In this document: positions 28,851-58,923 of the stretch, in pieces | Layout of the letters: every line of letters begins with the position of its first letter | Numbering within the stretch: the stretch's first letter is position 1 | Assembly (NCBI RefSeq): GCF_014841125.1 | Contig: NZ_JACYTQ010000002.1 | Span: 496,001-560,000, forward strand | Direction of reading: 5' to 3' | DNA from: Echinicola arenosa | Lineage (GTDB): Bacteria; Bacteroidota; Bacteroidia; Cytophagales; Cyclobacteriaceae | DNA: 64,000 nt | Notes under the pieces: generated by a model | What the model was told of the DNA's origin: nothing | Seen by the model: only the letters and a program-made list of their open reading frames with translations | The model's database searches: none | Made by a program: the position numbers and the translations under genes

Positions 28851-29134
28851 AAAACACTGGTAAACAGAATATTATAAAAAAAGGGGGACAAATAGGAGGA
28901 CAGGTTCATTTTGGTTTTATAGCGCTAAATTTATTTGAATCATATTATTCTATAGTGGCTCTAATTGCCAAATAAGCTCATTTCTCGATTCGAATTTTTG
29001 AATGGTCTTTTTTCTTTTTGATGTAAAAAGCATAAAATCGACCTACTTGAAGATGGACAAATTTTTGAAAACGAACCTTTGATTTAGAATTGAATTCATT
29101 TGCATGTTTTTGAATATTATCTCCACCTCGTAAA

Positions 29135-29178
29135 ATTCGTACGGTACGAGGGGTACGAGCCGTACGAAGTGTACGAAT
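29135..29178. repeat. Iteron core A: ATTCGTAC, three 9-bp units, GTACGAAT
   Basis: The 8-bp arm ATTCGTAC is followed by GGTACGAGG, GGTACGAGC, CGTACGAAG, then T and the exact inverse arm GTACGAAT, 44 bp in all. Each unit contains the palindrome GTAC. It lies 25 bp 3' of the broken higA gene. Confidence 0.85.
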
Positions 29179-29202
29179 TCTGAACTATCTTTTCCATGCA
29201 AT

Positions 29203-29594
29203 TTAAACACTCATTTTTTCTTGCTTGCCATCCAGTTCGTAGGGCTGGACCAGTACCTCAACAGGTAAGTTGGAGTAGCTGGAAAGAATTCTGACATTTT
29301 CGACGGTAAACGGTCTTTTCCTGTTCAACACCAAGCTGACAATAGTTTTACTGCCTATCGCCGGAATCAGATGCTTGTCTTTTAAGCCTTTTCACTCCAT
29401 TGTTTCTTTTATGGCCTAAATAGGTTGAGGTAAGGCAATAAGGTGCTTTTCCTTCTATTATTTTCGATGAGGGTAACCAAAAATTCTGCCTCCATCCCTT
29501 CTGCACTGTCTGGATCTGACTCAAAGATTTGGGAAAGTCTAGCAAGGGATTCTTTATATTCCTGTTCAATCGTAATGATCTTTTCCCACTTCAT
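29203..29594 (-). pseudogene. Broken HigA-family antitoxin, copy A
   Basis: The N-terminal half reads MKWEKIITIEQEYKESLARL and continues to FLVTLIEN, as in HigA/HTH-XRE antitoxins. At about 29458 the frame is lost: relative to copy D one A is missing in the A-run of the LIEK codons, so the reading frame leaves the HTH half. The helix-turn-helix part is still recognisable downstream by comparison with copy D. No higB toxin gene is next to it, so no working toxin-antitoxin pair is present here. Confidence 0.75.
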
Positions 29595-29680
29595 GATTTT
29601 AAGTTAATTTTCGATTTTAAAACTGATCTACTGTATTCGCATCCACCTTATCGTACTCGGAGTGTGTGCCTTCCTGCTTA

Positions 29681-29900
29681 TTAATTTTCCAGTATGTTCA
29701 TCAATTTCTGGTTCAAGTATAATTTTTCCTTTCCTACTCTGACAGATTTCAGGAAGCCTTCTTCTTCCAATGCGCTGAGATAATTTCCAACTGTTTTTGG
29801 TGTTCCTAAATCAATGTCAATTAGGTTTTGCCTTTTGGTATATGGCAGCTTAAAAATGACCTCAACCAAATCCTTAGAATATACTTTCGGAAGCTTTTCT
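29681..29900 (-). pseudogene. 3' fragment of a Fic-family gene (copy of the end of the fic at 59428)
   Basis: The last about 72 codons (EKLPKVYSKDLVEV... to LMNILEN) equal the C-terminal winged-helix part of the Fic protein at 59428-60510. Identity stops at 29900. Upstream of that the frame reads 11-12 unrelated residues to a chance ATG at 29935. The FIC catalytic core is missing, so this is a remnant. Confidence 0.85.
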
Positions 29901-30263
29901 ATAATTACACCATCAAATGACATAAGATCAACCAAATGATTTTATGTCACTAATAACTCCGGTTCTACTTTACTATTAATACAGGTATCTAGCTTCAGAA
30001 TTCCGAAGACTTTAGCCATGGATCTAAGATCACTAGCATCTTTAAGAAGAATCAGTTTTTTCATAAACGACAATCCCCCATATATTAAAAACATTTACTT
30101 TCAGGGCTAACGATTGAAAGCCTATTGTAGCTTAGAAATAGTTTTATGGAATTGTAATTTTGAAAGGTAATTAATTGTATTTTTCGATACGTTAGTCAGA
30201 ATTAACAAACAACCTAGAAGTCTAATTAAAATTGATCCTTGCTAAGATTCAAATAATCTTTCA
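29901..30263. other. Intergenic stretch without recognisable features
   Basis: This is 363 bp between the fic remnant and the fucosidase remnant. I see no open frame of note, no hairpin and no match to other parts of the window. Confidence 0.5.
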
Positions 30264-30755
30264 ATGCTTAAATAACGGGTTCTCCTTTTGACTCTTTGAT
30301 CATCAATCTTAATCCATCCACTTCCATATCTTCCAACACTATGATATGCTTATGTCCAATAGAGCTTCCAGTATAGATTTCTTTCCATTTCCCATTGACT
30401 TTCCCTTCCAATACAAAAGCCCGGATGCGTTCGCCAAAACGAATATCTTCCTGCAGTACAACATGATTGATCACTTCACCCGTTTCCAGTTTTAGCATAA
30501 GTTTTTTTCCGGTACCGGATGTTTCGGCAATTGGTGAAGCATATATTCTTTTTACCTCATCACCAAATTCCTTCATTCGATTGGCATCTTTTACAGGAAC
30601 CAGTCCATTATCATCAGGAGTAATTCCCAAAATCAAAGTACTGTTGTGACCAACACTGTTTTCATACATATTCATCAAATTCTCCAAAGGGAAAATATGG
30701 TCCTCATCTCCAGGTTCCCAATACCTTCCATTTCTTCCATCTTATCCCCTTAATA
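30264..30755 (-). pseudogene. 3' fragment of the GH29 a-L-fucosidase gene (partial duplication)
   Basis: A 139-codon frame (30268-30687) encodes MENLMNMYENSVGHN... to KGEPVI, nearly identical to the C-terminal third of the fucosidase at 34644-36038 (visible changes include Glu to Asp and Ile to Val). DNA similarity runs from about 30264 to 30704 at near identity, then decays to about 30755. The catalytic region and signal peptide are absent. It lies on the far side of the two sulfatase genes from the intact copy, as a direct repeat about 4.4 kb away. Confidence 0.88.
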
Positions 30756-30875
30756 CCATTTTATTTCTAACTTTAACTATTTTCTCCAAAAAAAGTCAAT
30801 AAATGCTTAAGGTACTTCCTTGAATTAGCATTCCCAGTTTAGAATTATAGATTCCTTTTGGTTAAAACAGTAATT

Positions 30876-32339
30876 TCACATTCGGATCAACTCTTCTAAT
30901 TGGACTTGAAACGCTTTAATTTTCTCAGGGTATTGGTCGGCCAAATTATTCTTTTCATTGGGGTCATTTGACAAGTCAAAAAGAGAAAAACTCCATGAAC
31001 CATCTTTTGATGATCGATGCGGAATAAATTTCCAGTTTCCGTCTCTCAAAGCGTATTGTCCAGAGTAGGTATGGTGCACCATTCGTTTTCTCGAGGACTT
31101 AATGTTGTTGTTTTTCAATAAGGGCAAAAAGCTTATTCCATCTCCTGTTGCTATAGGCACTTGAAAAATATCTGCTACTGTCGCATAAATATCCATTATG
31201 CTAACCAATCCATCATTGGTAGAGTTTTCTGGCACAACATTAGGCCATCTCACAATAAAGGGTACTCTATGTCCTCCTTCCAAAAGTGAGGCTTTGAACC
31301 CATTTAGATTGCCACAGGATTGATGTCCATAATCATTACCATCATCACTGGTAGGAGTTCCTCCGTTGTCACTAGAAACAATCAACAATGTATTATCCGT
31401 TATGCCCAATGCATCCAATTTTTCCATAATTTGTCCAAGGGCCCAGTCAAATTCATAAACCATATCTCCTCTTTCCCCTGCCTGGCTTTTTCCTTTGGCA
31501 AAATCAGCAGGAGTACAAGGTCGATGGGGTGCCACTGTAGGAAGATATAAGAAAAAAGGCTTTCCTAGCGCTGTATTTTCTTCAATAAATTGAAGTGATT
31601 TTTTTGTAAGTGTAGGTCCTATCTCCGTATCATCCCATCCTTCAATCATCCAGCCCTCATGTACTTCACTAGCCGAAATCTCTTCTTTGGACGGCTGACC
31701 CTTTTCTCTCCATATTGTTGGCAAACCATATGTATATCTGTTTTCTATGAAAACATGGGGCTCCATATTATGTCCTCCTCCTGAACCAAAAAAATAATCA
31801 AAACCTAAATCATTTGGGCCACCGTATGAAGGATTCATAAAATTCACATCACGTGTACCTTTCAATCCTTTCTCATGCCAATCTTTAGCTTCAACATATT
31901 CAAATCCCTGATTTTTAAAGAAATTTATTCCTAGATGCCATTTACCTACTACCGCTGTAGCATAGCCCTGATCTTTGAGCATATCAGCAATGGTCACTTC
32001 AGATTTATCAATCAAGGGATCATTAAAAGTAGACCAAAGGACCTCCCGTTTCAAATCAGATCTCCAAGCATACTTCCCTGTGATAAAACTGTATCGAGAT
32101 GGAGTACAAACTGAAGATGCAGCATGGGCATCTGTAAATACCATTCCTTCTTTAGCCAAACGATTCATATTGGGAGTTGGAATCTTTGAATCTGGATTAT
32201 AACATTGTGGATCACCATAACCCATATCATCAGCCATAATGAAAATTACATTAGGCCTAGTCGAATGTTGAGCCATAACCTGAAAGCCAAGTAAGAACAG
32301 GACAATTTGTATCTTCAGTATTTTGGATTTTATCCTCAT
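30876..32339 (-). CDS. S1-family sulfatase, signature CTPSR
   Basis: This is an exported sulfatase of 487 residues with a signal peptide ending VMAQ (about 24). The metal site starts with MADDMGYGD (Asp37, Asp38). The formylglycine signature C78-T-P-S-R82 with SFITG after it is complete, so Cys78 should be converted by an anaerobic or FGE-type maturase, none of which is in this window. SSDNGGTPT and GKWHLG are further conserved pieces. It is probably the last gene of the fucose PUL and likely removes sulfate esters from glycan fragments. The precise S1 subfamily cannot be assigned. Confidence 0.92.
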   Translation of the reverse strand: MRIKSKILKIQIVLFLLGFQVMAQHSTRPNVIFIMADDMGYGDPQCYNPDSKIPTPNMNRLAKEGMVFTDAHAASSVCTPSRYSFITGKYAWRSDLKREVLWSTFNDPLIDKSEVTIADMLKDQGYATAVVGKWHLGINFFKNQGFEYVEAKDWHEKGLKGTRDVNFMNPSYGGPNDLGFDYFFGSGGGHNMEPHVFIENRYTYGLPTIWREKGQPSKEEISASEVHEGWMIEGWDDTEIGPTLTKKSLQFIEENTALGKPFFLYLPTVAPHRPCTPADFAKGKSQAGERGDMVYEFDWALGQIMEKLDALGITDNTLLIVSSDNGGTPTSDDGNDYGHQSCGNLNGFKASLLEGGHRVPFIVRWPNVVPENSTNDGLVSIMDIYATVADIFQVPIATGDGISFLPLLKNNNIKSSRKRMVHHTYSGQYALRDGNWKFIPHRSSKDGSWSFSLFDLSNDPNEKNNLADQYPEKIKAFQVQLEELIRM

Positions 32340-32789
32340 GTTTACATTCGTTTTGATTTAATAATCCGACAACCCTACTACTACAGAAGTATTGTTTGTT
32401 GTAACTGATTCTCCTTAATGATATATCCAAAACTGATTATCAGAATAATACCGGTAATCTTTGACCAAGCCACTGTAAGATTAAAACACTAATAATGAAT
32501 CAGTTGACACCTATACCAAAAAGATCATATGAATACGCTTTTAACCTTTACGGGAAAAATAGCGAATATACATATTCCAAAATATCAGTAAGCTAATTTA
32601 ATTTCTTCAACATGCTAATATAATTCTTACTTCAATTTTCTAATTTGTTTCCCAAGTTAAAAAATTGAGGCAATAAACTGTATATAGGCCGATCTTCGAG
32701 GTATTCTTTTGCATGAACTTATGCAAACAAAGTGCTTGGGAAAATATATAATAATGATGTGAAAATATTTTCATATACAATTTTCTATA
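32340..32789. other. Intergenic region between sulfatase genes
   Basis: This is 450 bp of AT-rich sequence between two minus-strand sulfatase genes. I see no hairpin of terminator quality, no promoter match and no gene. The gap makes a separate promoter for the downstream sulfatase likely. Confidence 0.5.
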
Positions 32790-34568
32790 TCAAACTGCCT
32801 TCATTCTATCCAACAAAACGTAAATCATTATCCGATTTCCCCATTGATTGTCTGGATTGGACAGCTCCACTTCAAGTTCCAATTCCAACGTACCAGTCTC
32901 GGACTTGGAGAATTCCCCTAAATCCAAAACCGAATTATCCCCAGTTTTGATAAAAGATATAATGGGATTACCACTTTCTCTAAGCTTCCCATAGTCTCGT
33001 TCTGTTCTCAATTCAATGGATAAACTATCAAGATTTCTCAATACCTCTCCACTTTTTGAAATTTTGACATGCTTGATTTTAACATCTGCATAGGTCAACC
33101 CCGAATTTGAAGACTCATATGCCCTGGCTACCCTCAATTGATAGACTTGGTCAGTACTTGAAATGAACTTACTTAAATCAATCCTTATGGTTTTTGTCTG
33201 AGGTGTAAATTCGAGATTGTCATAAATATACCCACCTAACATTACCTTGTCTCTAATTCTTTTATAATCCCCGTACTTGGCCATCAGCTTCTGTTTGGTA
33301 GGATACTTTGAAAGCTCGCTGTTTTCAAAAACATTATCAAATTCACCTTCCAAGATCGTTCTGGTAACAGCTGTAATTTCCGAATCATTTTGTTTATAAA
33401 AAGGATGTAATTCCCTTGGGTCCTCCTTTAGATTATATAATCTCCCATCGTAATACAGTTTATACTCCTTGTCCCTTATATAAGTGGACAGAGGATGAAA
33501 GAAAGTCGAAAAAATATAAGGTTTGCCTACTCTTTCTTCTTGATCAAGAACAGGCAGTAGGGATACGCCATCCAATTTTTTATTTACCTCTGATAAGTCA
33601 TATCCGGCCAAATCTGCCAACGTCGGATAAAAATCAGTAAAATCCACAAGCTCATCAGATGTTTGCCTTTTACCATCATATTTCACTAGCAACGGGACAT
33701 GTACACCGTCATGACTTGCGGTACCTTTTCCACCATAGATCACCTCACCATTACTCATGTGATGTTCTAATGTTTTACTTCCATTATCGGTGGTATAGAT
33801 GATTATCGTGTTTTCATAAAGTCCATTTTCTTTGAGTTTTTGGACCACGTTTCCAATCATCTTGTCAGCATATGTCACCATATCCTCAAAGTTTTGCTGC
33901 CAGTCAGTGGAACTGGGATCTTCGCTATCCGGAGTTGGCTCAAAAGGATTGTGTGCCAAGGACATAGGATAATATATAAAAAAAGGCTGGTCTTGGTTTT
34001 TCTCAATAAAATCCAATGTCCTTTCATTAAATCGATCAGGTGCATAATCGGCAACAAATGGCCCACCATTTTCTTCCAAAGGGCAATTGTAAAAATACCT
34101 TTTAAAAAACTCAGCATACGAAAGCTCCCCGGGGCTGCCATTGAACAAGCAGAATTCGTCAAAGCCAAGCTGATCAGGAGTCTTGCTGAGGTGCCATTTT
34201 CCAAATGCCGCGGTTGCATAACCTGCAGCTTTCATCATCTTTCCCAATGGAGGCAGCTCAAGTTCAAAACTGCCCCACCCAGTATAGTTACGATAATTAT
34301 ACTGTCCAGTAATTAATTTAACCCTTGTGGGCACGCAAAGTGGTTGGGAATCGCAATTAACAAAATCGGTGCTTTCATGCGCCAATGCATCCAAATTGGG
34401 AGTATGAAAGTTCAAAACCTCCTTATATCCCAAGGTCTCATAACCCATATCATCTCCTAGGATAAAAATAATATTTGGTTTTGATGATCTGGCATTTCCC
34501 TGATCTTCAGCTGCCGAGTCCCAACAACTCAATATAAAAATTCCAGCAAATATGAAGTACTTGATCAT
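32790..34568 (-). CDS. S1-family sulfatase with C-terminal extension, signature CVPTR
   Basis: This is a 592-residue lipoprotein: the signal is short, with lipobox ILSC (Cys15). LGDDMGYETLGY supplies metal ligands. The formylglycine signature is C78-V-P-T-R82, followed by VKLITG; Thr in place of Ser is a permitted variation. TTDNGSKTLEHH and KYDGKR fit later conserved motifs. About 170 residues at the C-terminus (from about 420) are outside the sulfatase core and look like a beta-rich accessory domain. It lies 75 bp after the fucosidase gene, so the two probably act on the same sulfated fucoside. Confidence 0.9.
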   Translation of the reverse strand: MIKYFIFAGIFILSCWDSAAEDQGNARSSKPNIIFILGDDMGYETLGYKEVLNFHTPNLDALAHESTDFVNCDSQPLCVPTRVKLITGQYNYRNYTGWGSFELELPPLGKMMKAAGYATAAFGKWHLSKTPDQLGFDEFCLFNGSPGELSYAEFFKRYFYNCPLEENGGPFVADYAPDRFNERTLDFIEKNQDQPFFIYYPMSLAHNPFEPTPDSEDPSSTDWQQNFEDMVTYADKMIGNVVQKLKENGLYENTIIIYTTDNGSKTLEHHMSNGEVIYGGKGTASHDGVHVPLLVKYDGKRQTSDELVDFTDFYPTLADLAGYDLSEVNKKLDGVSLLPVLDQEERVGKPYIFSTFFHPLSTYIRDKEYKLYYDGRLYNLKEDPRELHPFYKQNDSEITAVTRTILEGEFDNVFENSELSKYPTKQKLMAKYGDYKRIRDKVMLGGYIYDNLEFTPQTKTIRIDLSKFISSTDQVYQLRVARAYESSNSGLTYADVKIKHVKISKSGEVLRNLDSLSIELRTERDYGKLRESGNPIISFIKTGDNSVLDLGEFSKSETGTLELELEVELSNPDNQWGNRIMIYVLLDRMKAV

Positions 34569-34643
34569 CTTTATGCTTTTTGAATGGATCTTTCACGAAT
34601 CATCACACAACAATTCCTCTTAAAACAGGCTTCCAGTTTCATC

Positions 34644-36038
34644 TTAATATACTGAAAGTGCTTGAATAATGGGTTCTCCTTTTGACTCTTTGATCATCAA
34701 TCTTAATCCATCCACTTCCATCTCTTCCAATACTATGATATGCTTATGTCCAATAGAGCTTCCAGTATAGATTTCCTTCCATTTCCCATTGACTTTCCCT
34801 TCCAATACAAAAGCCCGGATGCGTTCGCCAAAACGAATATCTTCCTGCAGTACAACATGATTGATCACTTCACCCGTTTCCAGTTTTAGCATAAGCTTTT
34901 TTCCGGTACCGGATGTTTCGGCAATTGGTGAAGCATATATTCTTTTTACCTCATCACCAAATTCCTTCATTCGATTGGCATCTTTTACAGGAACCAGTCC
35001 ATTATCATCAGGAGTAATTCCCAAAATCAAAGTACTGTTGTGACCAACACTGTTTTCATACATATTCATCAAATTCTCCAAAGGGAAAATATGGTCCTCA
35101 TCTCCAGGTTCCCAAAACCATTCATGTCTTCCTTCATATCCCCTTAGGGGAGCGTCACTCATAGCTGGCATATAATAATCCCCATCGGGATCTCCATATT
35201 TTATAGGTCTAAAACCTATGGAATCCCCTCTGTTGGCAAACCATGAAGGTGCATGATATGTTCCCCAACAAGGATATGGAACGGTCCCCGATTCACTTCC
35301 TCCCCATCGGATATCAGCCCTTTCCAGATTATGATAGAAAATGGCATTGGGTTGGTTCCTTTCCACTATCCCCTGGACATCAGGCCCACCCTGCTTGGGA
35401 CCATGGGCACCACCATCAAACCAAATAATTGCCAAATCCCCATACTTGGAAGTAAGCTCTTCTACCATACCCTCGCACATCCTATTATAATGTTCTTGCC
35501 TGTTTTTAGAAAATCCACCTTCTCCCTGAACTTTAAAATCATGGATTCCATAAAAGGAATTCCAGCGTATACCTATATAAATCCCTGGTTCAATCCCATA
35601 TTTACGACAGGATTCAACAAAGTCCCCAACTATGTCCCCTTTACCATCACGCCACTTTAGTGCCTTTAGACTATACGGGTTGACATCACTTTGATAGATA
35701 GCAAATCCTGTCTCATGGGTCGCCGTTAGAATGGCTATTTTAGCCCCCATGTCCTTGGCAGATTTCACCCATTGATCTGTATCCAATTGTTCCGGGTTGA
35801 AAATATTGTAATCAGCAACAGGGGTAATCCTGTTTTCTCGTTGCACATATTTTTTCCCATCAAACACATGTAGGTCATAATGAAAGACAGCAACCAACTC
35901 GGCATTCTGCCATGCCAATTGAGCCGGTGTGGGAAGGGGCACTGTACTCTCAGAAACTTCTTGAGCAGAAACTGAGAAAATAATACAATACATCAATCCT
36001 AATAACAACCTAATTTTCATTTTGTTAAGCTTGTTCAT
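34644..36038 (-). CDS. a-L-fucosidase, GH29
   Basis: This is a retaining exo-a-L-fucosidase, exported by a signal peptide (about 1-25, MNKLNKMKIRLLLGLMY...SAQ). LTATHETGF occupies the place of the usual TAKHHDGF. YIGIRWNSFYGI follows, and the probable nucleophile Asp208 sits in IIWFDGG. FPLENLMNMYENSVGHNSTL begins the C-terminal part, which is also present as a detached duplicate at 30264. It is a GH29 enzyme of 464 residues. The position between SusC/SusD and sulfatases points to a sulfated fucose-containing polysaccharide. A terminator at 36076 separates it from the SusC/SusD genes, so it probably has its own promoter. Confidence 0.9.
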   Translation of the reverse strand: MNKLNKMKIRLLLGLMYCIIFSVSAQEVSESTVPLPTPAQLAWQNAELVAVFHYDLHVFDGKKYVQRENRITPVADYNIFNPEQLDTDQWVKSAKDMGAKIAILTATHETGFAIYQSDVNPYSLKALKWRDGKGDIVGDFVESCRKYGIEPGIYIGIRWNSFYGIHDFKVQGEGGFSKNRQEHYNRMCEGMVEELTSKYGDLAIIWFDGGAHGPKQGGPDVQGIVERNQPNAIFYHNLERADIRWGGSESGTVPYPCWGTYHAPSWFANRGDSIGFRPIKYGDPDGDYYMPAMSDAPLRGYEGRHEWFWEPGDEDHIFPLENLMNMYENSVGHNSTLILGITPDDNGLVPVKDANRMKEFGDEVKRIYASPIAETSGTGKKLMLKLETGEVINHVVLQEDIRFGERIRAFVLEGKVNGKWKEIYTGSSIGHKHIIVLEEMEVDGLRLMIKESKGEPIIQALSVY

Positions 36039-36075
36039 TTAAAAACCAATTTCTATATAAAATATTCAATATCTA

Positions 36076-36107
36076 AAAAAGGGGAAAAGTTAAACTTCCC
36101 CCTTTTC
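36076..36107 (-). terminator. Terminator after the PUL SusD gene
   Basis: On the minus strand AAAAGGGGGAAG pairs with TTTTCCCCTTTT (two G-U pairs) around TTTAAC, followed by more T. It lies 24 bp after the SusD stop at 36131. Confidence 0.7.
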
Positions 36108-43325: not shown

Positions 43326-44462
43326 TTATAGTGAACGGCCGTCTACCCGACTACCAGCTGGCAATCCTATCAATTCGTAATTGGTACTTCTTCCTCCTGC
43401 TGCTTCCTTTTGCAGGATTCCTTTCCCAATAAGGTCGTTAATATCCCTAACTGCTGAATCTTTAGAGCACTTTGCAATCTTTGCCCATTTGGACGAGGTT
43501 AATTTCCCGTCAAATCCATCCACTAGCCTATTCAACAATTTTCTTTGTCGGTCATTTATTGCAGTATCTATGTGCTTCCGCCAAAAATCTGCTTTGAACA
43601 GAACTTTTGAAAGTATTAAATCCGTGGACCTTAAAGCGTTGATCAAACAGTTTAAAAACCAAACAATCCAATCAGTTATATCCAAATTCCCCTTTTGCGT
43701 TTTTTCCAATATCTCATAATACTGTTTTCTTTCCAAACGGATCTGGGCAGACATACTGTAAAAACGTTGGTTACTTTTGTCGGCTTGCGCTAGTAGCATA
43801 TCGGTCAATGCCCTTGTTATTCTTCCATTTCCATCTTCAAAAGGGTGGATTGTTACAAACCATAAATGGGCGATTGCTGCTTTAATTACCAAGTCAATTT
43901 TACTATTGTTGAACCAATTTAGAAATCGGGTCATTTCTTTTTCAACCAGATTGAAATCAGGTGCTTGAAAATGAACCTTTTCTTTCCCCATTGCCCCGGA
44001 AACTACCTGCATAGGCCCAGTAGTATCTTTTCTCCAATCTGCTAAGTTAATTTTGTACATCCCACTTCTTCCTGTTGGAAACAATGCAGCATGCCAGTCA
44101 AAAAGCCTGTCAACTGTTAATGGGTCAAAGCATCTTTGGGTAGCGTCAAGCATCATTTCAACTACTCCTTCTACACTTCTGTCAGCATCCACTGCTCTTG
44201 CTACTTCCATTCCCAATCTACGTGCAATTGATGAACGCACTTGGTCAGGGTTAAGGAATTCGCCTTCTATCTCCGATGATTTTATTACATCAAGGGTCAA
44301 TGTATCAAGTAGGGCCTCATTTCTCAAATCGAAACCTAATGTTTCCATTTTTCCAATAAGCCTACCCTGTAAATTTCTTGCCTCACTTAACAGATCCAAG
44401 AAGTCATTACCGTTCCAGGTAAATTCTGGCCAATTATCTTTTTGATGTATAAAAGCTTTCAT
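43326..44462 (-). CDS. Fic-family protein with DUF4172 N-terminus and winged-helix C-terminus
   Basis: Fic proteins usually transfer AMP from ATP to target proteins. The N-terminal DUF4172 domain is at about 1-85 (FIHQKDNWPEFTW) and contains the autoinhibitory motif S62-S-E-I-E66-G67. The FIC core motif HPFEDGNGRITR starts at catalytic His206. A winged-helix domain follows at about 305-365 (SSKWAKIAKCSKDSAVRDINDLIGKG). At 378 residues it looks intact. A second, truncated copy lies at 60722-61292 with about 90 percent DNA identity by eye. It has a good promoter at 44508-44537, set among repeated TTCGTTGC-like motifs that suggest a dedicated repressor or autoregulation. Confidence 0.93.
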   Translation of the reverse strand: MKAFIHQKDNWPEFTWNGNDFLDLLSEARNLQGRLIGKMETLGFDLRNEALLDTLTLDVIKSSEIEGEFLNPDQVRSSIARRLGMEVARAVDADRSVEGVVEMMLDATQRCFDPLTVDRLFDWHAALFPTGRSGMYKINLADWRKDTTGPMQVVSGAMGKEKVHFQAPDFNLVEKEMTRFLNWFNNSKIDLVIKAAIAHLWFVTIHPFEDGNGRITRALTDMLLAQADKSNQRFYSMSAQIRLERKQYYEILEKTQKGNLDITDWIVWFLNCLINALRSTDLILSKVLFKADFWRKHIDTAINDRQRKLLNRLVDGFDGKLTSSKWAKIAKCSKDSAVRDINDLIGKGILQKEAAGGRSTNYELIGLPAGSRVDGRSL

Positions 44463-44639: not shown

Positions 44640-44711
44640 TGAAATATCATTTCCACCTCGTAAAATTCGTACGGTACGAGAGATACGAGCCATACGAGGC
44701 GTACGAATTTA
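44640..44711. repeat. Dispersed repeat copy B with iteron core (44665-44708)
   Basis: The core is ATTCGTAC, then GGTACGAGA, GATACGAGC, CATACGAGG, then C and GTACGAAT, 44 bp. The 25 bp before it (ending CCACCTCGTAAA) match copies A and C; similarity ends right after the core. Unlike the others it has no higA remnant and lies about 180 bp upstream of the fic start. The remaining sequence of the 521-bp gap 44463-44983 shows only the fic promoter and a terminator. Confidence 0.85.
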
Positions 44712-51678: not shown

Positions 51679-51686
51679 CAAAATTA
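51679..51686 (-). promoter_or_regulatory. Candidate -7 element of the nitroreductase operon
   Basis: On the minus strand TAATTTTG matches TAnnTTTG, 35 bp upstream of the ATG at 51643. No TTG occurs at the usual spacing. The following stretch 51687-52142 holds no gene I can support. Confidence 0.4.
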
Positions 51687-52416
51687 CCTACTTATTCCTT
51701 GTCACCGTTAGTCGAAAAAGACCAAGGAATGACGGAAAAAGGTTTTCTTCTATAGAGATTCTCCCCTGCAGAATGACAGGATTGGATTCTCAGACCGATT
51801 ACCAGCAGCCACCTTCAAACCGTAATAATATAACCTTCTGTTAAAGTGAAAATTGAAATGAGCGCTTTCGAAAAGGCATGAAATAAAAACACCTATGATG
51901 GCTACCCATATCCAATTAATCTTCATGAGCATCCCCCAATTATCAGGACACACTTTGAGCTAAACTTAAACCCTACAATAGCTGACGGTTGACCTCTATT
52001 CTTTCAAAAAGCTCCGCGCTTCATTTCAGTAAATCCAAATCCATTTGAATGATTTCGATACGATCTCTTTGACTTTCACAACCTACCAAGCGCTTGTACA
52101 TCACCTATACCTCTCAAAAATTGAGTGATAATACAGTTCTAAAAGGAGGACAAAAAAGGGACGATAAGGGGGACAAATAGGAGGACAGGTTCATTTTGGT
52201 TTTATAGCGCTAAATTTATTTGAATCGTATCTTTTAAAATCAGCTCTAATTACCATATAAGCTCATTTTTCGATTTGAATTTTTGAATGGTCTTTTTTTT
52301 TGATGTAAAAAGCAGAAAATCGACCTACTTGAAGATGGACAAATTTTTGAAAACGAACCTTTGATTTAGAATTGAATTCATTTGCTTGTTTTTGGATATT
52401 ATTTCCACCTCGTGGA

Positions 52417-52442
52417 ATTCGTACGGTACGAGGGGTACGAAT
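52417..52442. repeat. Iteron core C: ATTCGTAC, one 9-bp unit, GTACGAAT
   Basis: The arms are identical to the other copies, with only GGTACGAGG plus G between them, 26 bp. It is exactly 18 bp (two units) shorter than cores A and B. Confidence 0.85.
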
Positions 52443-52474
52443 TCTGAACTATCTATTCCATGGAATTTTAACAC

Positions 52475-52622
52475 TCATTTTTCTTGCTTGCCATCCAGTT
52501 CGTACTGCTGGACCAGTACCTCAACTGGTAAGTTTAAGTAGCTGGAAAGATTTCTGACCATTTCGATGGTAAGCGGTCTTTTCCTGTTCAACGCCAAGCT
52601 GACAATAGTTTTACTGCCTATT
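52475..52622 (-). pseudogene. HigA-family antitoxin 3' fragment, copy C
   Basis: It encodes GSKTIVSLALNRKRPLTIEM to YELDGKQEK, the HTH half of the antitoxin. The N-terminal half is missing: at 52622/52623 the sequence changes to an AraC-type gene. The open frame runs on to 52681 in the wrong frame of that gene. Confidence 0.8.
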
Positions 52623-52949
52623 TCTCCATTTAAAATATTCTCAACGAAGCTTGCCGATAGTTTCCATTCCAAAAAAATCAAAAAGGGAATGGTGCAAACG
52701 AAATAAGGCAGTTTGCTCCCGCAACACTATTATTTGATGGGGTGTCAAGGCCCAAAAAAGAGTGATTCTATTAGGAAGGATTTTGATTTTCCTTCCTTTG
52801 AATAAATAAGCAATCCCTTCTTCAGGGAAAAAGTTGATTTCAATTTCATTATGGCGATCTGGTCTATGCATCAGATTGGGCATCCACATTTCACAGGAAA
52901 AGCCATAAGGTTTAAAAACACTTCTTATTTCATCAAAACGTTTCATCAT
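52623..52949 (-). pseudogene. 5' fragment of an AraC-type regulator gene
   Basis: It encodes about 100 residues from MMKRFDEIRSVFKPYGFSCE, with a cupin-like sensor motif (HRPDRHNEIEINFFPEEGIAYLF and WALTPHQII) typical of AraC-family N-terminal domains. The helix-turn-helix half is gone, replaced by repeat copy C. The small frame ends at 52641. Confidence 0.75.
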
Positions 52950-53044
52950 CTAGGAATTCGATAGATTATTAAGATAATATGGGTAGTTTTTATCCAAATG
53001 CGAGAATAAATTTACATCCAATCTTTTCAATAACCCCAAGCAAG

Positions 53045-54340
53045 ATGATTTGCAATAAAAGTATTTTACTAGCCTTTGTAGGAATATTCATTTTTTTTGG
53101 AAGCTCCAGCTGCCAAGCACAACTGAATGAATCTGCCAAACCTAGAGTAATCGTCAGTTCGGACATTGGCGGAACAGATCCTGATGATTTCCAATCGATG
53201 ATACATTTAATGATGTATTCAGACCTTTTTCAGCTGGAAGGATTGGTTTCATCACCTTTCGGTGATGGAACCAAAAAGGACTTTTTAGATATGATTGATA
53301 TCTACGAAAAAGATTACAAACAGCTCCTACCCAATGCCCCAGAACTCCCAACTCCAAAGTCACTGAGGGAGATAACCAAACAAGGGCAAAAAGATGCAGC
53401 ACCGTTTAAAGGACACACCACTCCAACAGAAGGTTCGGAATGGATAATCGCCTGCGCCAAGAAGAAAAGTGATCAACCCCTTTGGATAATGGTTTGGGGT
53501 GGAATAGAGGATCTTGCTCAAGCCTTACACGATGCTCCTGAGATCAAAGAGAGTATCAGAGTTTATTGGATCGGAGGCCCTAATAAAAAATGGAGTATCA
53601 ATGCCTATTCTTATATAGCAGAGCATCACCCTGACCTTTGGATGATCGAGGCAAATGCAACGTATAGAGGCTGGTTTATGGACAATGATTCCCCGAATGA
53701 CCTGAAAGGAAATGCTTATTATGAAAATTACATTCAGGGACGCGGTGAATTGGGAAAGGATTTCATCAAGTATTATGATGGCAACATTAAAATGGGCGAT
53801 ACGCCTTCGCTTGCTTATCTGATGAATGGAGATCCTAATAATCCTACCGGAGAAAGTTGGGGTGGAAGTTTTGAAAAGATCCACCGTAGCTCCAGAAATG
53901 TATTCAAGGGTGGAAGTTCCCTTCAGGATACTGTGGCTGCATATGCGACGGTGGAATGGAGATTTATAGGACCGGAAATAAGTGTCCCCGAAGATTCTGT
54001 AGTTTTCCAGATAGAAGTCCAGAATCAGACTTGGCCGGGCTACTACATGGGAGATGGAGTTTATGGAGTAAGATATTCTTCAAAAAAACCGGAACAAGGA
54101 TCTTATAAAACCAGTAGTTCCATCGCCGAATTGGATGGACTGGAAGGTTCCTATATCAGTACGGTTCCATGGCCGGGAAAAGCAACGGCAGATGATTATC
54201 AACTTGGACCTAACTGGTACAGTGATAGGCAAAATCCAGCACTTTTTATCGAAGATCAGCAAGGGGCAAAAACCATCTCAAAATACAGAAAGGAGTTCTT
54301 GATGGACTGGGCGGAGCGATGGAAATGGTTGGAAAAGTGA
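53045..54340 (+). CDS. DUF1593 protein (nucleoside-hydrolase-like domain, Sde182 type), copy 1
   Basis: This is an exported protein of 431 residues from the ATG at 53045 (MICNKSILLAFVGIFIFFGS), which starts a signal peptide; the frame is open to 52979. VIVSSDIGGTDPDDFQS resembles the calcium-binding Asp cluster of nucleoside hydrolases, and PLWIMVWGG and DTPSLAYLM are DUF1593 hallmarks. The family includes the cellulose-associated protein Sde182. Function in this organism is unknown, probably glycan-related. A second member lies at 61340. Confidence 0.85.
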   Translation: MICNKSILLAFVGIFIFFGSSSCQAQLNESAKPRVIVSSDIGGTDPDDFQSMIHLMMYSDLFQLEGLVSSPFGDGTKKDFLDMIDIYEKDYKQLLPNAPELPTPKSLREITKQGQKDAAPFKGHTTPTEGSEWIIACAKKKSDQPLWIMVWGGIEDLAQALHDAPEIKESIRVYWIGGPNKKWSINAYSYIAEHHPDLWMIEANATYRGWFMDNDSPNDLKGNAYYENYIQGRGELGKDFIKYYDGNIKMGDTPSLAYLMNGDPNNPTGESWGGSFEKIHRSSRNVFKGGSSLQDTVAAYATVEWRFIGPEISVPEDSVVFQIEVQNQTWPGYYMGDGVYGVRYSSKKPEQGSYKTSSSIAELDGLEGSYISTVPWPGKATADDYQLGPNWYSDRQNPALFIEDQQGAKTISKYRKEFLMDWAERWKWLEK

Positions 54341-54612
54341 TAGGGACAATCTAAAGTATTTAGCCTACACCTTAACTATGGAAAAAACCTATTTGATGGT
54401 AGTCTTGATAATAATTATCTTTCCCCAAGCACCCTCATTGTTCTAATACCCCATTTATCTAAACCCAGTTGACCAACTATCATCATTTAGCCTTTCAGAC
54501 TAATCCTCTGCCGAAGGTGGGAAACCTCCTAAAACTGACCTAATTCAATTTTAAGTCAATTCAACGTTTATTTTCCTCGTACAGATTACCCTGATTATTT
54601 CCGAAGGCACAC

Positions 54613-54972
54613 TTAAACGGCCTGCACTTGTTTAAAAAGTCTCTTCTTGTGATTTATTCCCCAATCTTTCAATGCATAGATTATCGGGTTTAACGTATCT
54701 GCATATGGTGTCAGTTTATACGAGATTTTTACAGGATAATCGTCAATGACAATTCTTTTGATCAACTGATGTTCTTCTAAATCCTTCAGCTCTTTGGCCA
54801 AAACCTTTGGCATCAATCCATCAATACTATCCTATATATCCGTAAATCTTTCATTCCCAAAACCTAGGGAAATAATGATTTGCAATTTCCATTTGCCATT
54901 GATCACCTCTAAGGTATCGCGCACGGGTTTCACCGTATCCAGACAATTTTTATATCCTTTTTTTACTGCCAT
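54613..54972 (-). pseudogene. HxlR-family regulator gene interrupted by an in-frame TAG
   Basis: Both halves read in the same frame. The N-terminal part from the ATG at 54972 is MAVKKGYKNCLDTVKPVRDTLEVINGKWKLQII..., ending FTDI at TAG (54834-54832). The C-terminal part continues DSIDGLMPKVLAKELKDLEE to KKRLFKQVQAV. The HxlR winged-helix signature INGKWKLQIIISL and the N-terminal Cys are present. One base change would restore a normal gene of about 119 residues. It is divergent from the metallophosphoesterase gene. The gap before it (54341-54612) shows nothing. Confidence 0.85.
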
Positions 54973-54995
54973 CTCTTCAAGATTCACACTTTCCT

Positions 54996-55003
54996 TAAAT
55001 TTG
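54996..55003 (+). promoter_or_regulatory. Candidate -7 element of the metallophosphoesterase gene
   Basis: TAAATTTG matches TAnnTTTG, 66 bp before the ATG at 55070, in the 97-bp divergent region with the broken hxlR gene. No TTG lies at the usual distance. Confidence 0.35.
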
Positions 55004-55069
55004 CAACAGCAATTCAATAGGAGACTAAATATTGCTGTCCTACCGCTTTTACAAAATGGAAAACAATAG

Positions 55070-56353
55070 ATGGGACAAATATTGAGTATCGCATTGATTA
55101 TTAAGGATATAAACCAGTATTTAGAGGATTTTGCTTACCCTAAATTTGAACACAAACTCAAGAGATTCGCACACACTTTTGCTCCTGAGGTTATAGTACT
55201 TTGCGAAGTAATAACTCATCTTTCATTTTCATATCATTCAATGAATTGGTTCTTGATTATAGCAATTTCAATTTGCTCCTTATTATTAGTTTTTTTAGGC
55301 TTTAGGACTACCGGAATAGGTGCATACTCTTGGCTGGTAGCAGCAATACTTATTGGCCTAATCCTGATGTATCCTTTGGTATGGTATGGAGTACTGCCAG
55401 AGCTGCCCGATAAAATACTCAGAGCCATTGTTCATTTTGATATGGGAATGGTGGGTTTGATCATCACTTTCATTTTAGTGCGAGATCTGGTATTTCTCCC
55501 TCTACATGCCATAAAAGTGGATTGGGCGCATTGGGGCTTTTCAAAATCGGGCACCTTTCTTATGTTCATTATATCTTTTGCATTGCTTTCCATAGGCAAT
55601 TGGAGGGCGCAGCGCGGCCCGGAATTAGTACAAGTCTCCATCCCAATCGGAAACCTCCCTTCTTCGTTAGAAAATTATAAAATCCTGCAATTAAGTGATC
55701 TCCACACTGGGCCTGGTATTAATGCCGCTTACGTAGATAATGTAATTGACATGGCCCTGAGGCAGGAAGCCGACATTGTTGTTTTGACTGGTGATATTGC
55801 AGATGGTAATTTTGAAAAATATAAGGATTCCTTGAAGCCACTATCTAAACTTACTGCAAAAACACAGGTATTGTATGTTGTAGGGAATCATGAGTACCTA
55901 AAAGACAGTGATCAATGGCTTGATTATTTTAGGAGTCTTGGTATTCAGGTGCTACTTAATGACCATTGGGTCATGTCGAGTAGAGAAAATCCCATCCTCT
56001 TTGCAGGAATTATAGACCCAGAGGTAAAAGAAGTAGACCCTACTAGTGGTCCTGATCTACAAAAAGCACTGTATGGAAGTCCGGATGCAGATCTTAAAAT
56101 ATTGCTCGCACATCAACCCAACATTGCTGAAGAAGCTTCGCAATATTTTGATTTACAACTATCAGGGCATACTCACGCAGGACAATTCTTCCCAGGGAAT
56201 ATTCTTATAAAACTTTTTCAACCTTTCGCGAAAGGGCTTAACAAATGTAACAATATGTGGGTATATACGAACTCCGGAACCGGTTATTGGGGACCTCCAT
56301 TTAGATTGGGCACCACTTCAGAAATCACCTTACTCAAATTGATAAAACAATAG
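55070..56353 (+). CDS. Membrane-anchored metallophosphoesterase (YkuE-like)
   Basis: This protein of 427 residues has about four to five membrane segments between about 55 and 175, then a calcineurin-like phosphoesterase domain. Metal motifs are clear: D210-L-H212, G241-D242, GNHE at 272-275, and SGHTHAGQF near the end, the form seen in YkuE-type enzymes acting on lipid or nucleotide phosphates. The domain is predicted to sit on one face of the membrane; which face cannot be decided by eye. Confidence 0.9.
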   Translation: MGQILSIALIIKDINQYLEDFAYPKFEHKLKRFAHTFAPEVIVLCEVITHLSFSYHSMNWFLIIAISICSLLLVFLGFRTTGIGAYSWLVAAILIGLILMYPLVWYGVLPELPDKILRAIVHFDMGMVGLIITFILVRDLVFLPLHAIKVDWAHWGFSKSGTFLMFIISFALLSIGNWRAQRGPELVQVSIPIGNLPSSLENYKILQLSDLHTGPGINAAYVDNVIDMALRQEADIVVLTGDIADGNFEKYKDSLKPLSKLTAKTQVLYVVGNHEYLKDSDQWLDYFRSLGIQVLLNDHWVMSSRENPILFAGIIDPEVKEVDPTSGPDLQKALYGSPDADLKILLAHQPNIAEEASQYFDLQLSGHTHAGQFFPGNILIKLFQPFAKGLNKCNNMWVYTNSGTGYWGPPFRLGTTSEITLLKLIKQ

Positions 56354-56388
56354 CTGAAAGGGATTTGCATACAAACCCAAGAGATTTG

Positions 56389-56406
56389 AACACTTTCAAA
56401 AGTGTT
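56389..56406. promoter_or_regulatory. Inverted repeat upstream of the aldo/keto reductase gene
   Basis: AACACTTT and AAAGTGTT (8 bp, exact) are separated by CA, a compact 18-bp operator-like site 40 bp before the start codon. Confidence 0.35.
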
Positions 56407-56445
56407 TCATTTCTGAATTTTGCTTCAAATTAAAAATGACAATTA

Positions 56446-57447
56446 ATGAAAAATGTAAAATTAGGATCTCAAGGATTGGTAGTGCCACAAGTGGGGCTTG
56501 GATGCATGGGTATGACTCAATTTGCCGGTCACGATGTGTATAAGTCAGCAGACCAAGAGGAAGCAATACTAACAATTCACAGAGCGTTGGAATTAGGAGG
56601 GAACTTCCTGGATACGGCTGACCAATACGGTCCCGGAGACAATGAGCGCCTTATAGGAAAAGCGGTTCAGGGAAAAAGGGACCAATACATTATAGCAACA
56701 AAGTTTGGCTATGAAATAGATGACAAGGGTGAATTAACCTGGAAGAAAAATGCAACTCCCGAATATGTGCGCAAGGCTGTAGAACGCTCCTTAAAAAACC
56801 TGAATACAGATTATATTGATTTGTATTATCTGCACCGTTTAGACCCTAATGTCCCTATTGAAGATACCATCGGGGCAATGGCAGAATTGGTACAAGAAGG
56901 CAAAGTGAAATATTTAGGTCTGAGTGAAGTTGGTGTTAATACAATTAATAGAGCGCACAGCATACACCCCATTTCTGCTCTTCAGACCGAATATTCTTTA
57001 TTTGAAAGAACGGTTGAAGAAGCAGGTATTTTAAAAGCCTTAGAGGAGATGGAAATTGGTTTTGTACCTTATTCCCCTTTAGGAAGGGGCTTTATTTCCG
57101 GGGACATTAAAAGTCCATCAGACTTAAAAGAAGGTGATTGGCGTTTGAATATCCCACGTTTCCAGGGAGAACAGTTTCAAAAAAATCTAGACCTGGTAAA
57201 GGAAATTGGAATACTAGCGAATGAAAAACAGGTGACCACTGCGCAACTGGCTTTGGCCTGGGTGTTTTCCAAAGGCTATGTACCAATTCCGGGAACAGCT
57301 AAAAGAAAACATTTAGAGAAAAATATTGAAGCCACAGATATTACATTAAGTACCGAGGATATTGAGCGTTTAGAAAGTATTGTACCTCTGGGTTTGGACA
57401 CAGGTGCACGCTATGATGCTCATGGAATGGAAAGTATTGATCAATGA
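56446..57447 (+). CDS. Aldo/keto reductase
   Basis: This is an NADPH-dependent carbonyl reductase of 333 residues with the (beta/alpha)8 barrel signature. The catalytic tetrad is visible: Asp56, Tyr61 (DTADQYG), Lys86 (ATKFG) and His130 (YYLHR). The C-terminal PIPGTAKRKHLEKN binds NADPH. It is most like the YajO/Tas or AKR13 groups by recall. It lies 150 bp before an AraC gene on the same strand. Confidence 0.93.
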   Translation: MKNVKLGSQGLVVPQVGLGCMGMTQFAGHDVYKSADQEEAILTIHRALELGGNFLDTADQYGPGDNERLIGKAVQGKRDQYIIATKFGYEIDDKGELTWKKNATPEYVRKAVERSLKNLNTDYIDLYYLHRLDPNVPIEDTIGAMAELVQEGKVKYLGLSEVGVNTINRAHSIHPISALQTEYSLFERTVEEAGILKALEEMEIGFVPYSPLGRGFISGDIKSPSDLKEGDWRLNIPRFQGEQFQKNLDLVKEIGILANEKQVTTAQLALAWVFSKGYVPIPGTAKRKHLEKNIEATDITLSTEDIERLESIVPLGLDTGARYDAHGMESIDQ

Positions 57448-57601
57448 TAATAATAGCTGAAGGGGAATGGCGTAAGGCCGTTTCATTTCTTAATTTTAAT
57501 ATATGAAATGAGCATAAACTTAGAACCCCTAAATATACCAACCGAAAGATGAATAAGTTTATCGCGAATTCCATGTGACCATTGGAAATAAACTAACACA
57601 C

Positions 57602-58519
57602 ATGAAAAAGATAGCTACTCCTGTGCATGTCAAAACCGTTTCAGAGGCGCACCGTATTCTTGAAATAGCATCTCCAAAACATCCATTGGTAAGTGTCATT
57701 GATCTGAGTATGCTCAACCAAACTAACCCTGCAGTACCAGGAAGTTTTGTAAATGATTTTTATTCCGTTTTTATTAAAAAAGACTTTACGGGAAAATTAC
57801 GGTATGGCCAACAAAACTATGACTTTGACCATGGCGTGATGATGTTTTGCGCGCCCCAACAACTCATTTCAGTGCAGGATGCAGGGAAAAATAAGCCTAA
57901 CGGCTGGTGGTTACTTTTTCATCCGGATTTTCTTCAGACCTATCCATTGGCCAGCCGCATAAAAGAGTTCGGTTTTTTTAATTATGAAATGCATGAAGCC
58001 CTTCACTTGTCAGAAGACGAAGAAAGAGTAATTGAAGGTATTCTGAACAATATTGAGAAAGAGTATAGCTCCTCCATTGATAATTTTAGCCAGGATGTCA
58101 TTATTTCCCATATTGAGTTGCTTTTAAATTATTCCAACCGTTTTTATAACAGACAGTTCATCACCCGAAAATCAGCAAACAGTGGTTTGCTAAGCAAACT
58201 TGAACAACTACTAAACCACTATTTTGAAAATGATTTACCTATTTTGAAAGGTCTTCCTACAGTTGGTTTCCTATCAAACGAGTTAAACGTTTCACCTAAT
58301 TATCTGAGTGATATGCTGAGGGTAACCACGGGACAAACCACCCAGTACTACATTCACCAAAAGGTAATTGAAAAAGCAAAAATAATATTGTCTACCAGCA
58401 ACTTGACCGCCTCAGAAGTAGCTTATCAGCTGGGGTTTGATTATCCACAATCCTTTAGCAAATTATTCAAAGCGAAAACAAATATGTCACCCATTGAATA
58501 CAAGAAATCATTGAATTAA
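57602..58519 (+). CDS. AraC-family transcriptional regulator, copy 2
   Basis: This is a 305-residue regulator from the ATG at 57602 (MKKIATPVHVKTV); a longer frame begins at 57575. The N-terminal cupin-like region contains LRYGQQNYDFDHGVMMFCAP. The C-terminal helix-turn-helix pair is VGFLSNELNVSPNYLSDML and LTASEVAYQLGFDYPQSFSK, ending MSPIEYKKSLN. It probably regulates the aldo/keto reductase gene before it. Confidence 0.9.
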   Translation: MKKIATPVHVKTVSEAHRILEIASPKHPLVSVIDLSMLNQTNPAVPGSFVNDFYSVFIKKDFTGKLRYGQQNYDFDHGVMMFCAPQQLISVQDAGKNKPNGWWLLFHPDFLQTYPLASRIKEFGFFNYEMHEALHLSEDEERVIEGILNNIEKEYSSSIDNFSQDVIISHIELLLNYSNRFYNRQFITRKSANSGLLSKLEQLLNHYFENDLPILKGLPTVGFLSNELNVSPNYLSDMLRVTTGQTTQYYIHQKVIEKAKIILSTSNLTASEVAYQLGFDYPQSFSKLFKAKTNMSPIEYKKSLN

Positions 58520-58700
58520 AAGGAAGTTCTTTTATTAGGATTTAAGGTTTTCTAAAGTCATAGCATTCCGATTTTGATTTCTTGTTCGATTCAAATGCGT
58601 TCACAAAAACAGGAGAAATTAAGTGAAAAGAAGACAAATTGACCCACTGGGAAAAATTGGGATAGATTAATACCATAACCCACATACCCTCTTATAAACA

Positions 58701-58760
58701 AAAAAAAGGATACTATTTCTAGTATCCTTTGAAGTAACGGGAACAGCGCTTCAAACTGCT
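58701..58760 (-). other. Degenerate tRNA-3'-end-like sequence with terminator (possible att scar D)
   Basis: Minus-strand reading gives GTTTGAAGCGCTGTTCCCGT then TACTTC, resembling a T-arm and acceptor strand. A perfect 11-bp hairpin follows (AAAGGATACTA / TAGTATCCTTT, loop GAAA) and then eight T. Layout and sequence parallel the site at 28800-28850. No tRNA 5' half is present. The rest of 58520-58789 holds nothing recognisable. Confidence 0.4.
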
Positions 58761-58888
58761 ATTGACTTTCAATAATTTATGAGAAAAGAGGGACAAAAAG
58801 GGGGACAGATTCATTTTGCATTTACTTTTTTAAATTTATTTGAATTGAACCATTTGAACTGTTTTGAATCAAATTTCTCCTCCGTACC

Positions 58889-58923
58889 ATTCGTACGATA
58901 CGAGCCGTACGAGGTGTACGAAT
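58889..58923. repeat. Iteron core D: ATTCGTAC, two 9-bp units, GTACGAAT
   Basis: GATACGAGC and CGTACGAGG plus T lie between the invariant 8-bp arms, 35 bp in all. It is one 9-bp unit shorter than A and B and one longer than C. Confidence 0.85.

Follow-up and report, generated by a model that had tools for sequence, protein, structure and literature searches.

Arrays of 9-bp pitch in a tRNA-Met island of Echinicola arenosa as candidate binding platforms for an AAA_25 ATPase of integrative mobilizable elements

Four copies of a short repeat with perfectly inverted arms are dispersed over the window, the 64,000-nucleotide stretch of Echinicola arenosa DNA analysed here. What are these repeats, and which protein might read them?

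Architecture and genomic occurrence of the arrays

The first-pass annotation had described the four copies as arms ATTCGTAC and GTACGAAT enclosing units of GRTACGAGN. Their coordinates, their lengths (44, 44, 26 and 35 bp), their common orientation and the constancy of both arms across the copies were all confirmed, but the internal register had to be revised. The outermost left unit had been overlooked (at 29128, 44658, 52410, as TCGTG, and 58882, as CCGTA), there is no extra base before the last arm, which is itself a unit in register, and GRTACGAGN fits some units but not others (copy 1 has CGTACGAAG). The array plan is two TCGTA sites, a 3-bp gap and two to four TACGA sites, with a 9-bp pitch throughout:

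29128..29176, + strand: array 1, two TCGTA, gap of 3, four TACGA (six sites)
44658..44706, + strand: array 2, two TCGTA, gap of 3, four TACGA (six sites)
52410..52440, + strand: array 3, two TCGTA (one mutated), gap of 3, two TACGA
58882..58921, + strand: array 4, two TCGTA (one mutated), gap of 3, three TACGA

The pattern ATTCGTAC-10..28-GTACGAAT gave 0 matches in 100 order-1 Markov sequences of window length, versus the 4 observed. Over the whole 5.39-Mb genome the exact array pattern occurs only at the four window sites, and the reversed pattern, used as a control, gave 2 matches per strand. Two diverged copies, at C12:562756 (2.8 kb past the window end) and at C12:62745 (adjoining a tRNA-Ser gene), bring the number of array copies found in the genome to 6; no match to the pattern was found in viral contigs. 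Nor is the repetition confined to the array: a left flank of ~250 bp is common to copies 1 and 3, shortened in copy 4 and limited to ~28 bp in copy 2, and a right-side remnant is common to copies 1, 3 and 4. Single-strand DNA folds of the arrays gave z values of about -1.9 to -3.2, as palindromes would give. An RNA element was rejected, as no Rfam family reached the gathering threshold in window positions 28000-60500.

The island around the arrays

The arrays lie inside a 41-kb island that is bounded on each side by a perfect 16-bp copy of the tRNA-Met 3' end. The 16-mer identical to the distal att core ends tRNA-Met at C12:566058, outside the window and 41.2 kb away. The features of the island that bear on the arrays are:

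28827..28842, - strand: distal att core CCAGTTCCCGCTACTA, a copy of the tRNA-Met 3' end
28879..28892, - strand: putative integrase arm-type site TTTGTCCCCCTTTT
28881..29127, no strand: conserved terminal segment that separates the arm sites from the array
29206..29454, - strand: remnant flanking array 1 on the right; arrays 3 and 4 have related ones on that side
29684..29935, - strand: Fic C-terminal domain remnant, sharing 89% identity with the corresponding domain of 59431-60510
43329..44462, - strand: Fic protein with a DUF4172 domain, beside array 2
52141..52177, - strand: two arm-type sites, left of array 3
58732..58747, - strand: possible decayed att core, 3 mismatches in 16
58784..58809, - strand: two arm-type sites, left of array 4
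59431..60510, - strand: Fic_N / Fic / SoFic-like_C protein, right of array 4

Array 1 is 322 bp from the att core and 270 bp from an arm site; to the left of arrays 3 and 4, arm sites are found at distances of 267 bp and 107 bp, respectively. The conserved terminal segment appears again at about 52166-52409 and is shortened before array 4. No att or arm site was found near array 2, which is located ~200 bp upstream of the Fic gene. Repeats resembling TTTGTCCCCCTTTT also occur between tRNA-Met and int in three other genomes (G055, G320 and G325). An integron attC reading was dropped, with copies 6-15 kb apart and a position that att and arm sites account for.

Could the arrays simply be operators of the adjoining HigA-like or Fic genes? 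Arrays 1, 3 and 4, as well as that of G004, adjoin such genes or their remnants, and the Fic linkage proposed earlier does recur in several genomes (L020, L021, L022 and L024; by eye also L036, L037, L041 and L125). This linkage is nevertheless frequent rather than constant: arrays without HigA or Fic genes are found at most of the tRNA-Ser loci listed and behind ATPase genes. Moreover, the genes of the window and of G004 end at the array, with the sole exception of the array 2 Fic gene, whose start is at the array, and the HigA-like remnants tried (two relatives) had no Pfam match. We consider operators of this kind very improbable. By eye only, the remnant at 29206..29454 resembles a HigA C-terminus.

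The queries used for integrase, ATPase, MobA, MobC and DUF6371 had no match in the island, and one C-terminal fragment of a tyrosine recombinase lies beyond the window end. With its att cores at both ends (the 16-bp repeats 41.2 kb apart), no integrase or relaxase of the types searched, and stacking at one tRNA, it resembles CIMEs and tandem accretion, as defined in the accessible part of PMC5704250. Unlike CIMEs as that part defines them, the window islands keep, besides their att sites, an array that would bind a replication-type protein. The window cluster seems to consist of stacked islands that kept the terminal array and lost the protein. The sulfatase and SusC/D gene cluster of this genome is likely cargo of the tRNA-Met island.

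Arrays behind AAA_25 ATPase genes

The best-supported part of the first-pass annotation is a binding array for a helix-turn-helix (HTH) protein; the candidate protein is, however, an ATPase of integrative mobilizable elements. In Algoriphagus and relatives, an array of the window type stands right after the stop codon of a gene for an ATPase with AAA_25, DnaB-like and HTH domain matches, the HTH being C-terminal, and these genes are located in integrative mobilizable elements. The array was directly behind the ATPase stop in all 10 of the same-family loci inspected (L131, L132, L138-L144 and L152).

We then surveyed 26 non-redundant ATPase homologs for four or more exact sites in the first 120 nt past the stop codon, at pitches of 6-14. 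Pitch 9 was found in 6 of the 26, and pitches 7, 8, 10 and 12 in 1, 2, 1 and 1 homologs, respectively. Controls gave 0 at pitch 9 and 1 at pitch 8 upstream of the genes, 0 in the early gene body, and 0 at pitch 9 and 2 at pitch 8 in the last 120 nt of the gene; 20 shuffled sets gave at most 0.05 per pitch. The other 15 homologs had fewer than 4 exact sites at every pitch from 6 to 14; some of these carry weaker arrays and others none by eye (e.g., L151, L201, L205, L207 and L212). Several diverged ATPases have arrays alike in plan and different in sequence. By eye, the unit tracks the HTH: SEGA[VI]RKW goes with TACGA, SESGVRRI with TGCGA, M[KR]V.R[VI]L with GTTAC/GTAAC and KSTVNRI with GTCCC.

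From these comparisons, we estimate at roughly 70% the probability that the array is an iteron-like binding platform for the AAA_25 (DnaB-like) ATPase-HTH of tRNA-targeting integrative mobilizable elements in Bacteroidota. As in iteron origins, regular direct repeats are present, at a 9-bp pitch in the window and in its relatives, together with a replication-type protein that has a DNA-binding domain; internal arrays are located beside the gene of that protein, and window arrays are not. At E 1e-5, in a search run without a positive control, none of 11 genomes from the genus of the window gave an ATPase match, so the window arrays currently seem to lack a partner in this genus; related ATPase queries had matches in other genomes and none in G000. 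No sequence relative of the ATPase was found in the PDB at E 0.01.

The arrays might instead be oriT or relaxosome sites read by MobA/MobC rather than by the ATPase, and kept by the islands for mobilization in cis. The G055 array, which is located between the ATPase gene and mobC-mobA, would suit this, and an array retained in islands without the mobility genes searched fits a mobilization site. On the other hand, a nic region is unlike six 9-bp sites, in G310, G342 and G325 a distance of 8 to 11 kb separates the relaxase gene from the closer array, and the unit sequence tracks the HTH of the ATPase by eye, which makes a transfer origin unlikely.

Two kinds of array and their possible roles

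Across 52 arrays, six units were counted in 36, and 4, 5, 7 or 8 in the remainder, in agreement with the growth and shrinkage by 9 bp suggested earlier. Twenty-six are associated with att or arm sites of tRNA-Met, 9 with tRNA-Ser or its arms and 6 with an ATPase 3' end; array 2 of the window is one of the 11 with none of these nearby. Besides the internal kind behind the ATPase gene, Algoriphagus and relatives have a second, terminal kind at the opposite element end, close to att and to integrase arm sites, at tRNA-Met or tRNA-Ser. Judged by their sequence surroundings, the window arrays match this terminal kind. Terminal arrays are 295-365 bp from the tRNA-Met att core and 85-207 bp from tRNA-Ser-type arm sites, where such sites were found; the integration target proposed earlier is therefore right as to neighbourhood, but the array is not the att core itself. 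Their short side points towards att in 32 of 32 scorable cases, and 1 of 5 scorable internal arrays faces the opposite way.

This fixed orientation bears on whether the arrays belong to a passive REP- or MITE-like family of palindromic repeats multiplying in the neighbourhood of mobile DNA. The array is indeed short, palindromic, variable in 9-bp units and often intergenic. Such a family is very improbable, though, given the orientation to att, the arrays of similar plan and different sequence beside diverged ATPases, and the mere 6 copies found in the genome. Few or no further copies, or spacers of random length in unrelated surroundings, the outcome named at the outset as speaking against the first-pass reading, is not what the wider family presents, although copies per genome are few. 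A REP/RAYT origin, prompted by the flank motif GGGACAGGTTCATTTT, was also rejected: the motif sits at arm-type repeats and, with up to 2 mismatches, is present in 0 of the 30 Y1 transposase loci fetched, from 60 Y1 matches. The two Y1 genes of G000 are both on contig C17.

Two whole elements, G310 (75.7 kb) and G342 (62.2 kb), have identical 23-bp tRNA-Ser cores at each end, carry int, ATPase, primase-like and relaxase genes, and contain one internal and one terminal array each, both pointing inward. The G055 element has no terminal array, nor any other apart from the one between its ATPase gene and mobC-mobA, and in G674 and G676, whose element ends are unmapped, no distant second array of the same sequence was found within ~100 kb in either direction. 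A 10-kb Bacteroides circle yielded a single array, with pitches 8-11, which lies within the final 90 nt of its ATPase gene.

These elements also bear on a role in excision and integration, in which an ATPase bound near both element ends would help integrase and Xis to join the att sites. The constant distance and orientation of terminal arrays relative to att and arm sites would be explained. For NBU1, whose excision calls for genes and sequence other than int and the RDF, the accessible part of PMC5704250 names two additional genes, oriT and a portion of the relaxase gene. However, G055 has no terminal array, and the elements examined outside the family (G674, G676 and the Bacteroides circles) show arrays only at the ATPase 3' end; we regard this role as rather doubtful.

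Under the binding-platform reading, the six sites would be bound by the HTHs of one ATPase hexamer (2+4 or 3+3), a hexamer being expected from family membership. At the internal array, ATPase binding may start replication of the excised circle, in an oriV-like manner comparable to the region that follows rep in SGI1, and the terminal array may serve as a second loading or synapsis site. The window islands, without integrases of the types searched, would depend on an incoming element or be relics. As a tentative extension, clearly less probable than not, the six-site platform may fit a hexameric helicase with one HTH per subunit, the 9-bp pitch giving about -51 degrees per step, near a 60-degree staircase. 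An element would set one platform behind its helicase gene and a second, turned towards the first, within its distant att end. Satellite islands at the same tRNA would keep the far-end platform only, and the helicase of a relative that comes in would replicate or excise them. If so, whole islands for carbohydrate use and toxin-antitoxin functions could be carried with almost no mobility genes. The regular six-site spacing suggests a testable loading of a hexameric helicase at a defined site. More generally, mobilizable elements of Bacteroidota would be tied to a recognisable cis-site, whose sequence seems to vary with the ATPase HTH; this site offers a means to find such elements, to pair helpers with satellites and to test the copying of excised forms.

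In the literature searched, the arrays are undescribed in titles or abstract openings among the matches listed. Among the closest parallels is SGI1, for which the accessible part of PMC7433901 describes repeats directly downstream of rep, an excised form that replicates, and an oriV with four 17-bp GC-rich direct repeats and a putative DnaA box. Like SGI1 as described there, the present elements are integrative and mobilizable, with repeats directly downstream of a replication gene; in contrast, their 9-bp-pitch sites flip direction, their protein is DnaB/AAA_25-like with an HTH, the SGI1 Rep being of another type, and some carry another array at their distant att end. They share tRNA 3'-end sites with NBU1/Tn4555-type Bacteroides mobilizable elements, the sites of NBU1 and NBU2 being tRNA 3' ends in the accessible part of PMC5704250. 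The 10-kb circle (CP103138.1) has genes for an AAA ATPase, DUF6371, a mobilization protein, an integrase and an excisionase, and the terminal part of its ATPase gene contains a GTCCC array. This circle, which we take to be Tn4555-like, differs in its 8-bp pitch, in an array inside the coding end and in that no second array was found. The RSF1010-type RepA/RepC system also combines a RepA-like hexameric helicase with iterons; here, unlike in that system, the helicase-like ATPase itself carries the DNA-binding HTH as a fusion.

Geometry and distribution of the arrays

The four repeat stretches reported in the first-pass annotation are all present in the window, and their pattern exceeds chance expectation, as it had no match in 100 Markov sequences of window length.

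29128..29176 (+), array 1, iteron-like, four TACGA units
44658..44706 (+), array 2, iteron-like, four TACGA units
52410..52440 (+), array 3, iteron-like, two TACGA units
58882..58921 (+), array 4, iteron-like, three TACGA units

Read as 5-mers, each array consists of two TCGTA units at a 9-bp pitch, a gap of 3, and then TACGA units at a 9-bp pitch, whose number is lower in arrays 3 and 4. What had been described as a separate closing arm is the last unit of the array, and one left-hand unit had been overlooked. Two additional, more diverged copies were found in the genome, at C12:562756 and C12:62745 (C12, the source contig).

The exact pattern was detected in 8 contigs of a collection of named genomes, all from Algoriphagus. 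A screen of 98 genomes taken as relatives found it in 4, all belonging to the window's genus with its own genome counted; none of the viral contigs searched matched it. Using a longer query from A. chordae, whose genus (g113) is distinct from that of the window (g1), 40 of 390 genomes of the family, Cyclobacteriaceae (7 of 84 genera), matched at E 0.001, part of these matches being short or partial only.

tRNA ends and the window island

A 25-row alignment revealed a left flank conserved in most rows and a variable right flank. The left flank runs into GGGGGACA repeats and then into AGTAGCGGGAAC, which is the tRNA-Met(CAT) 3' end in reverse complement. The window and the 12 kb that follow it contain two copies of the 16-mer CCAGTTCCCGCTACTA and no more: one at 28827 and, 41.2 kb from it, one at the tRNA-Met gene at C12:566058. 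Position 58732 is possibly a decayed copy of this att core. Repeats of the TTTGTCCCCC type adjoin arrays 1, 3 and 4; they also lie next to the tRNA and to the array copy past the window end. No att or arm sites were found at array 2. Another nine arrays lie close to tRNA-Ser genes, with CAGTAGCGAA-type repeats recognised 85-207 bp away in six of them. In two Algoriphagus-group genomes (loci L122 and L124), a gene pair that is RelE/RelB-like by eye follows the array, 452-1008 bp away.

The island between the two tRNA-Met 3'-end copies encodes sulfatases and SusC/SusD-type proteins. It also holds Fic genes and remnants of a Fic gene and of a small protein that is HigA-like by eye; the integrase, MobA and MobC queries used gave no match in it. 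Our reading is a stack of islands, mostly decayed, in which array 1 lies at the outer limit. In another genome (G006), att cores were observed at the tRNA, 110 bp from it, and then in steps of ~15, ~12 and ~8 kb, with one array 295 bp inside each of the three stepped cores. A gene like that at 26883-28637, outside the island, borders the distal att in the window's genome, G004 and G007; in G006, G003, G010 and G005 it is present, with no core or tRNA within its 1.5-kb flanks. As tRNA-Met directly adjoins a distant homolog of this gene (28-31% identity) in G009 and G001, an empty site is weakly suggested there.

Three other features were noted. The segments 30252-30551 and 34646-34945 form a direct repeat (96% identical) in which the C-terminal part of gene 34644-36038 recurs 4.4 kb away; this recurrence suggests a duplication, and sulfatase genes lie between the copies. 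Fic/DUF4172 fragments occupy two frames at 60724-61291, with 88-91% identity to 43329-44462. To the right of the array copy past the window end, a tyrosine recombinase C-terminal fragment was seen at C12:562980-563183 (L008 ~1725-1928), and likewise in locus L035.

Arrays behind the ATPase gene and at element ends

Elements that carry an array behind the gene of an AAA_25 ATPase with a C-terminal HTH were reached through weak matches in two further genera. Around this gene lie those for a tyrosine integrase (Arm-DNA-bind/SAM-like), a small HTH protein interpreted as Xis, a primase-like protein of Toprim/CHC2 or DUF6371 type, and the MobC/MobA relaxase proteins, a set that is incomplete in some elements. 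Searches recovered the ATPase in 19 of 390 genomes of the order and 13 of 395 of the phylum. In the window's genus, 0 of 11 genomes matched at E 1e-5 in a search run without its own positive control; related queries did recover the gene from other genera, but not from the window's genome.

Many ATPase 3' ends carry an array of similar plan and other sequence (TGCGA, GTTAC, GTTTC, GGGAAC, TGTTCC, GTCCC and others). Among 26 homologs, non-redundant at 70% identity and drawn from 40, six had four or more exact sites at pitch 9 within 120 nt after the stop, and five others reached four or more at pitches 7, 8, 8, 10 and 12. The other 15 had fewer than four; the array is weaker in some of these (L135, L136, L147), and in others none was visible by eye. 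Among the controls, the upstream regions gave none at pitch 9 and one at pitch 8, the early gene body none, the last 120 nt of the gene two at pitch 8, and shuffled sequences at most 0.05.

Two whole elements were delimited, each with identical 23-bp tRNA-Ser 3'-end cores and arm repeats at both ends:

G310:C1 121391-197151, element
G342:C8 145176-207376, element

In both, the integrase and ATPase genes lie at one end; each element also has a relaxase gene and, by the patterns used, two arrays, one behind the ATPase (internal) and one beside the far arms (terminal). The layout of G325 is similar, at tRNA-Met: two att cores with terminal arrays lie at ~30 and ~40 kb, two extra, poorer arrays without core at 25 and 42 kb, and the internal array with the integrase and ATPase genes at 109-113 kb; the outer limit of its ATPase-bearing element was not found. 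Counter-evidence to a two-array layout comes from three genomes: G055, whose element (23 kb between att cores) has no array besides the internal one, and G674 and G676, where arrays of that sequence occur, in the 200 kb around each ATPase, only behind the gene (two in tandem and one, respectively).

The census comprised 52 arrays in 32 stretches after removal of one exact duplicate; one mismatch per unit was tolerated, and arrays with insertions escape (e.g., G007, L113 6981). Six units were counted in 36 arrays, five in 7, four in 6, seven in 2 and eight in 1. Stretches were picked for array or ATPase content, not for tRNA, and 26 arrays lie at tRNA-Met att or arms, 9 at tRNA-Ser or its arms, 6 at an ATPase 3' end; the remaining 11 are near none of these. 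The shorter side faces att in all 32 terminal arrays that could be scored, and it faces the ATPase in 4 of the 5 internal ones that could be. These counts are not independent, since some records share a species and copies within one genome are akin.

Possible role in replication and excision

The position, geometry and orientation of the arrays are established by observation, and their sequence, judged by eye, differs between ATPases with different HTHs. The HTH would bind the array units; DnaB-like proteins form hexamers, and six units would serve one ATPase hexamer. The excised circle would replicate from the internal array, by analogy with SGI1, whose oriV is situated directly downstream of rep (PMC7433901). 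Related Bacteroides elements have been deposited as circular sequences (10 and 11.6 kb), which fits an extrachromosomal form, short of proof of replication. The terminal array may serve as an additional loading site, may help synapsis during excision, or may be an origin that a helper reads on behalf of satellites.

The ATPase of locus L209 ends like that of the Bacteroides circles, whose array sits within the coding end. On a 51-kb Butyricimonas plasmid (L233, NZ_CP032820.1 45398-46741), GTCCC/GGGAC arrays were seen both within the end of the ATPase gene and in the gap that follows. A very long array follows the ATPase gene of L206 (G1081:C47), with GTAAC and GTTAC blocks at a 9-bp pitch and then GTTTC and GAAAC blocks.
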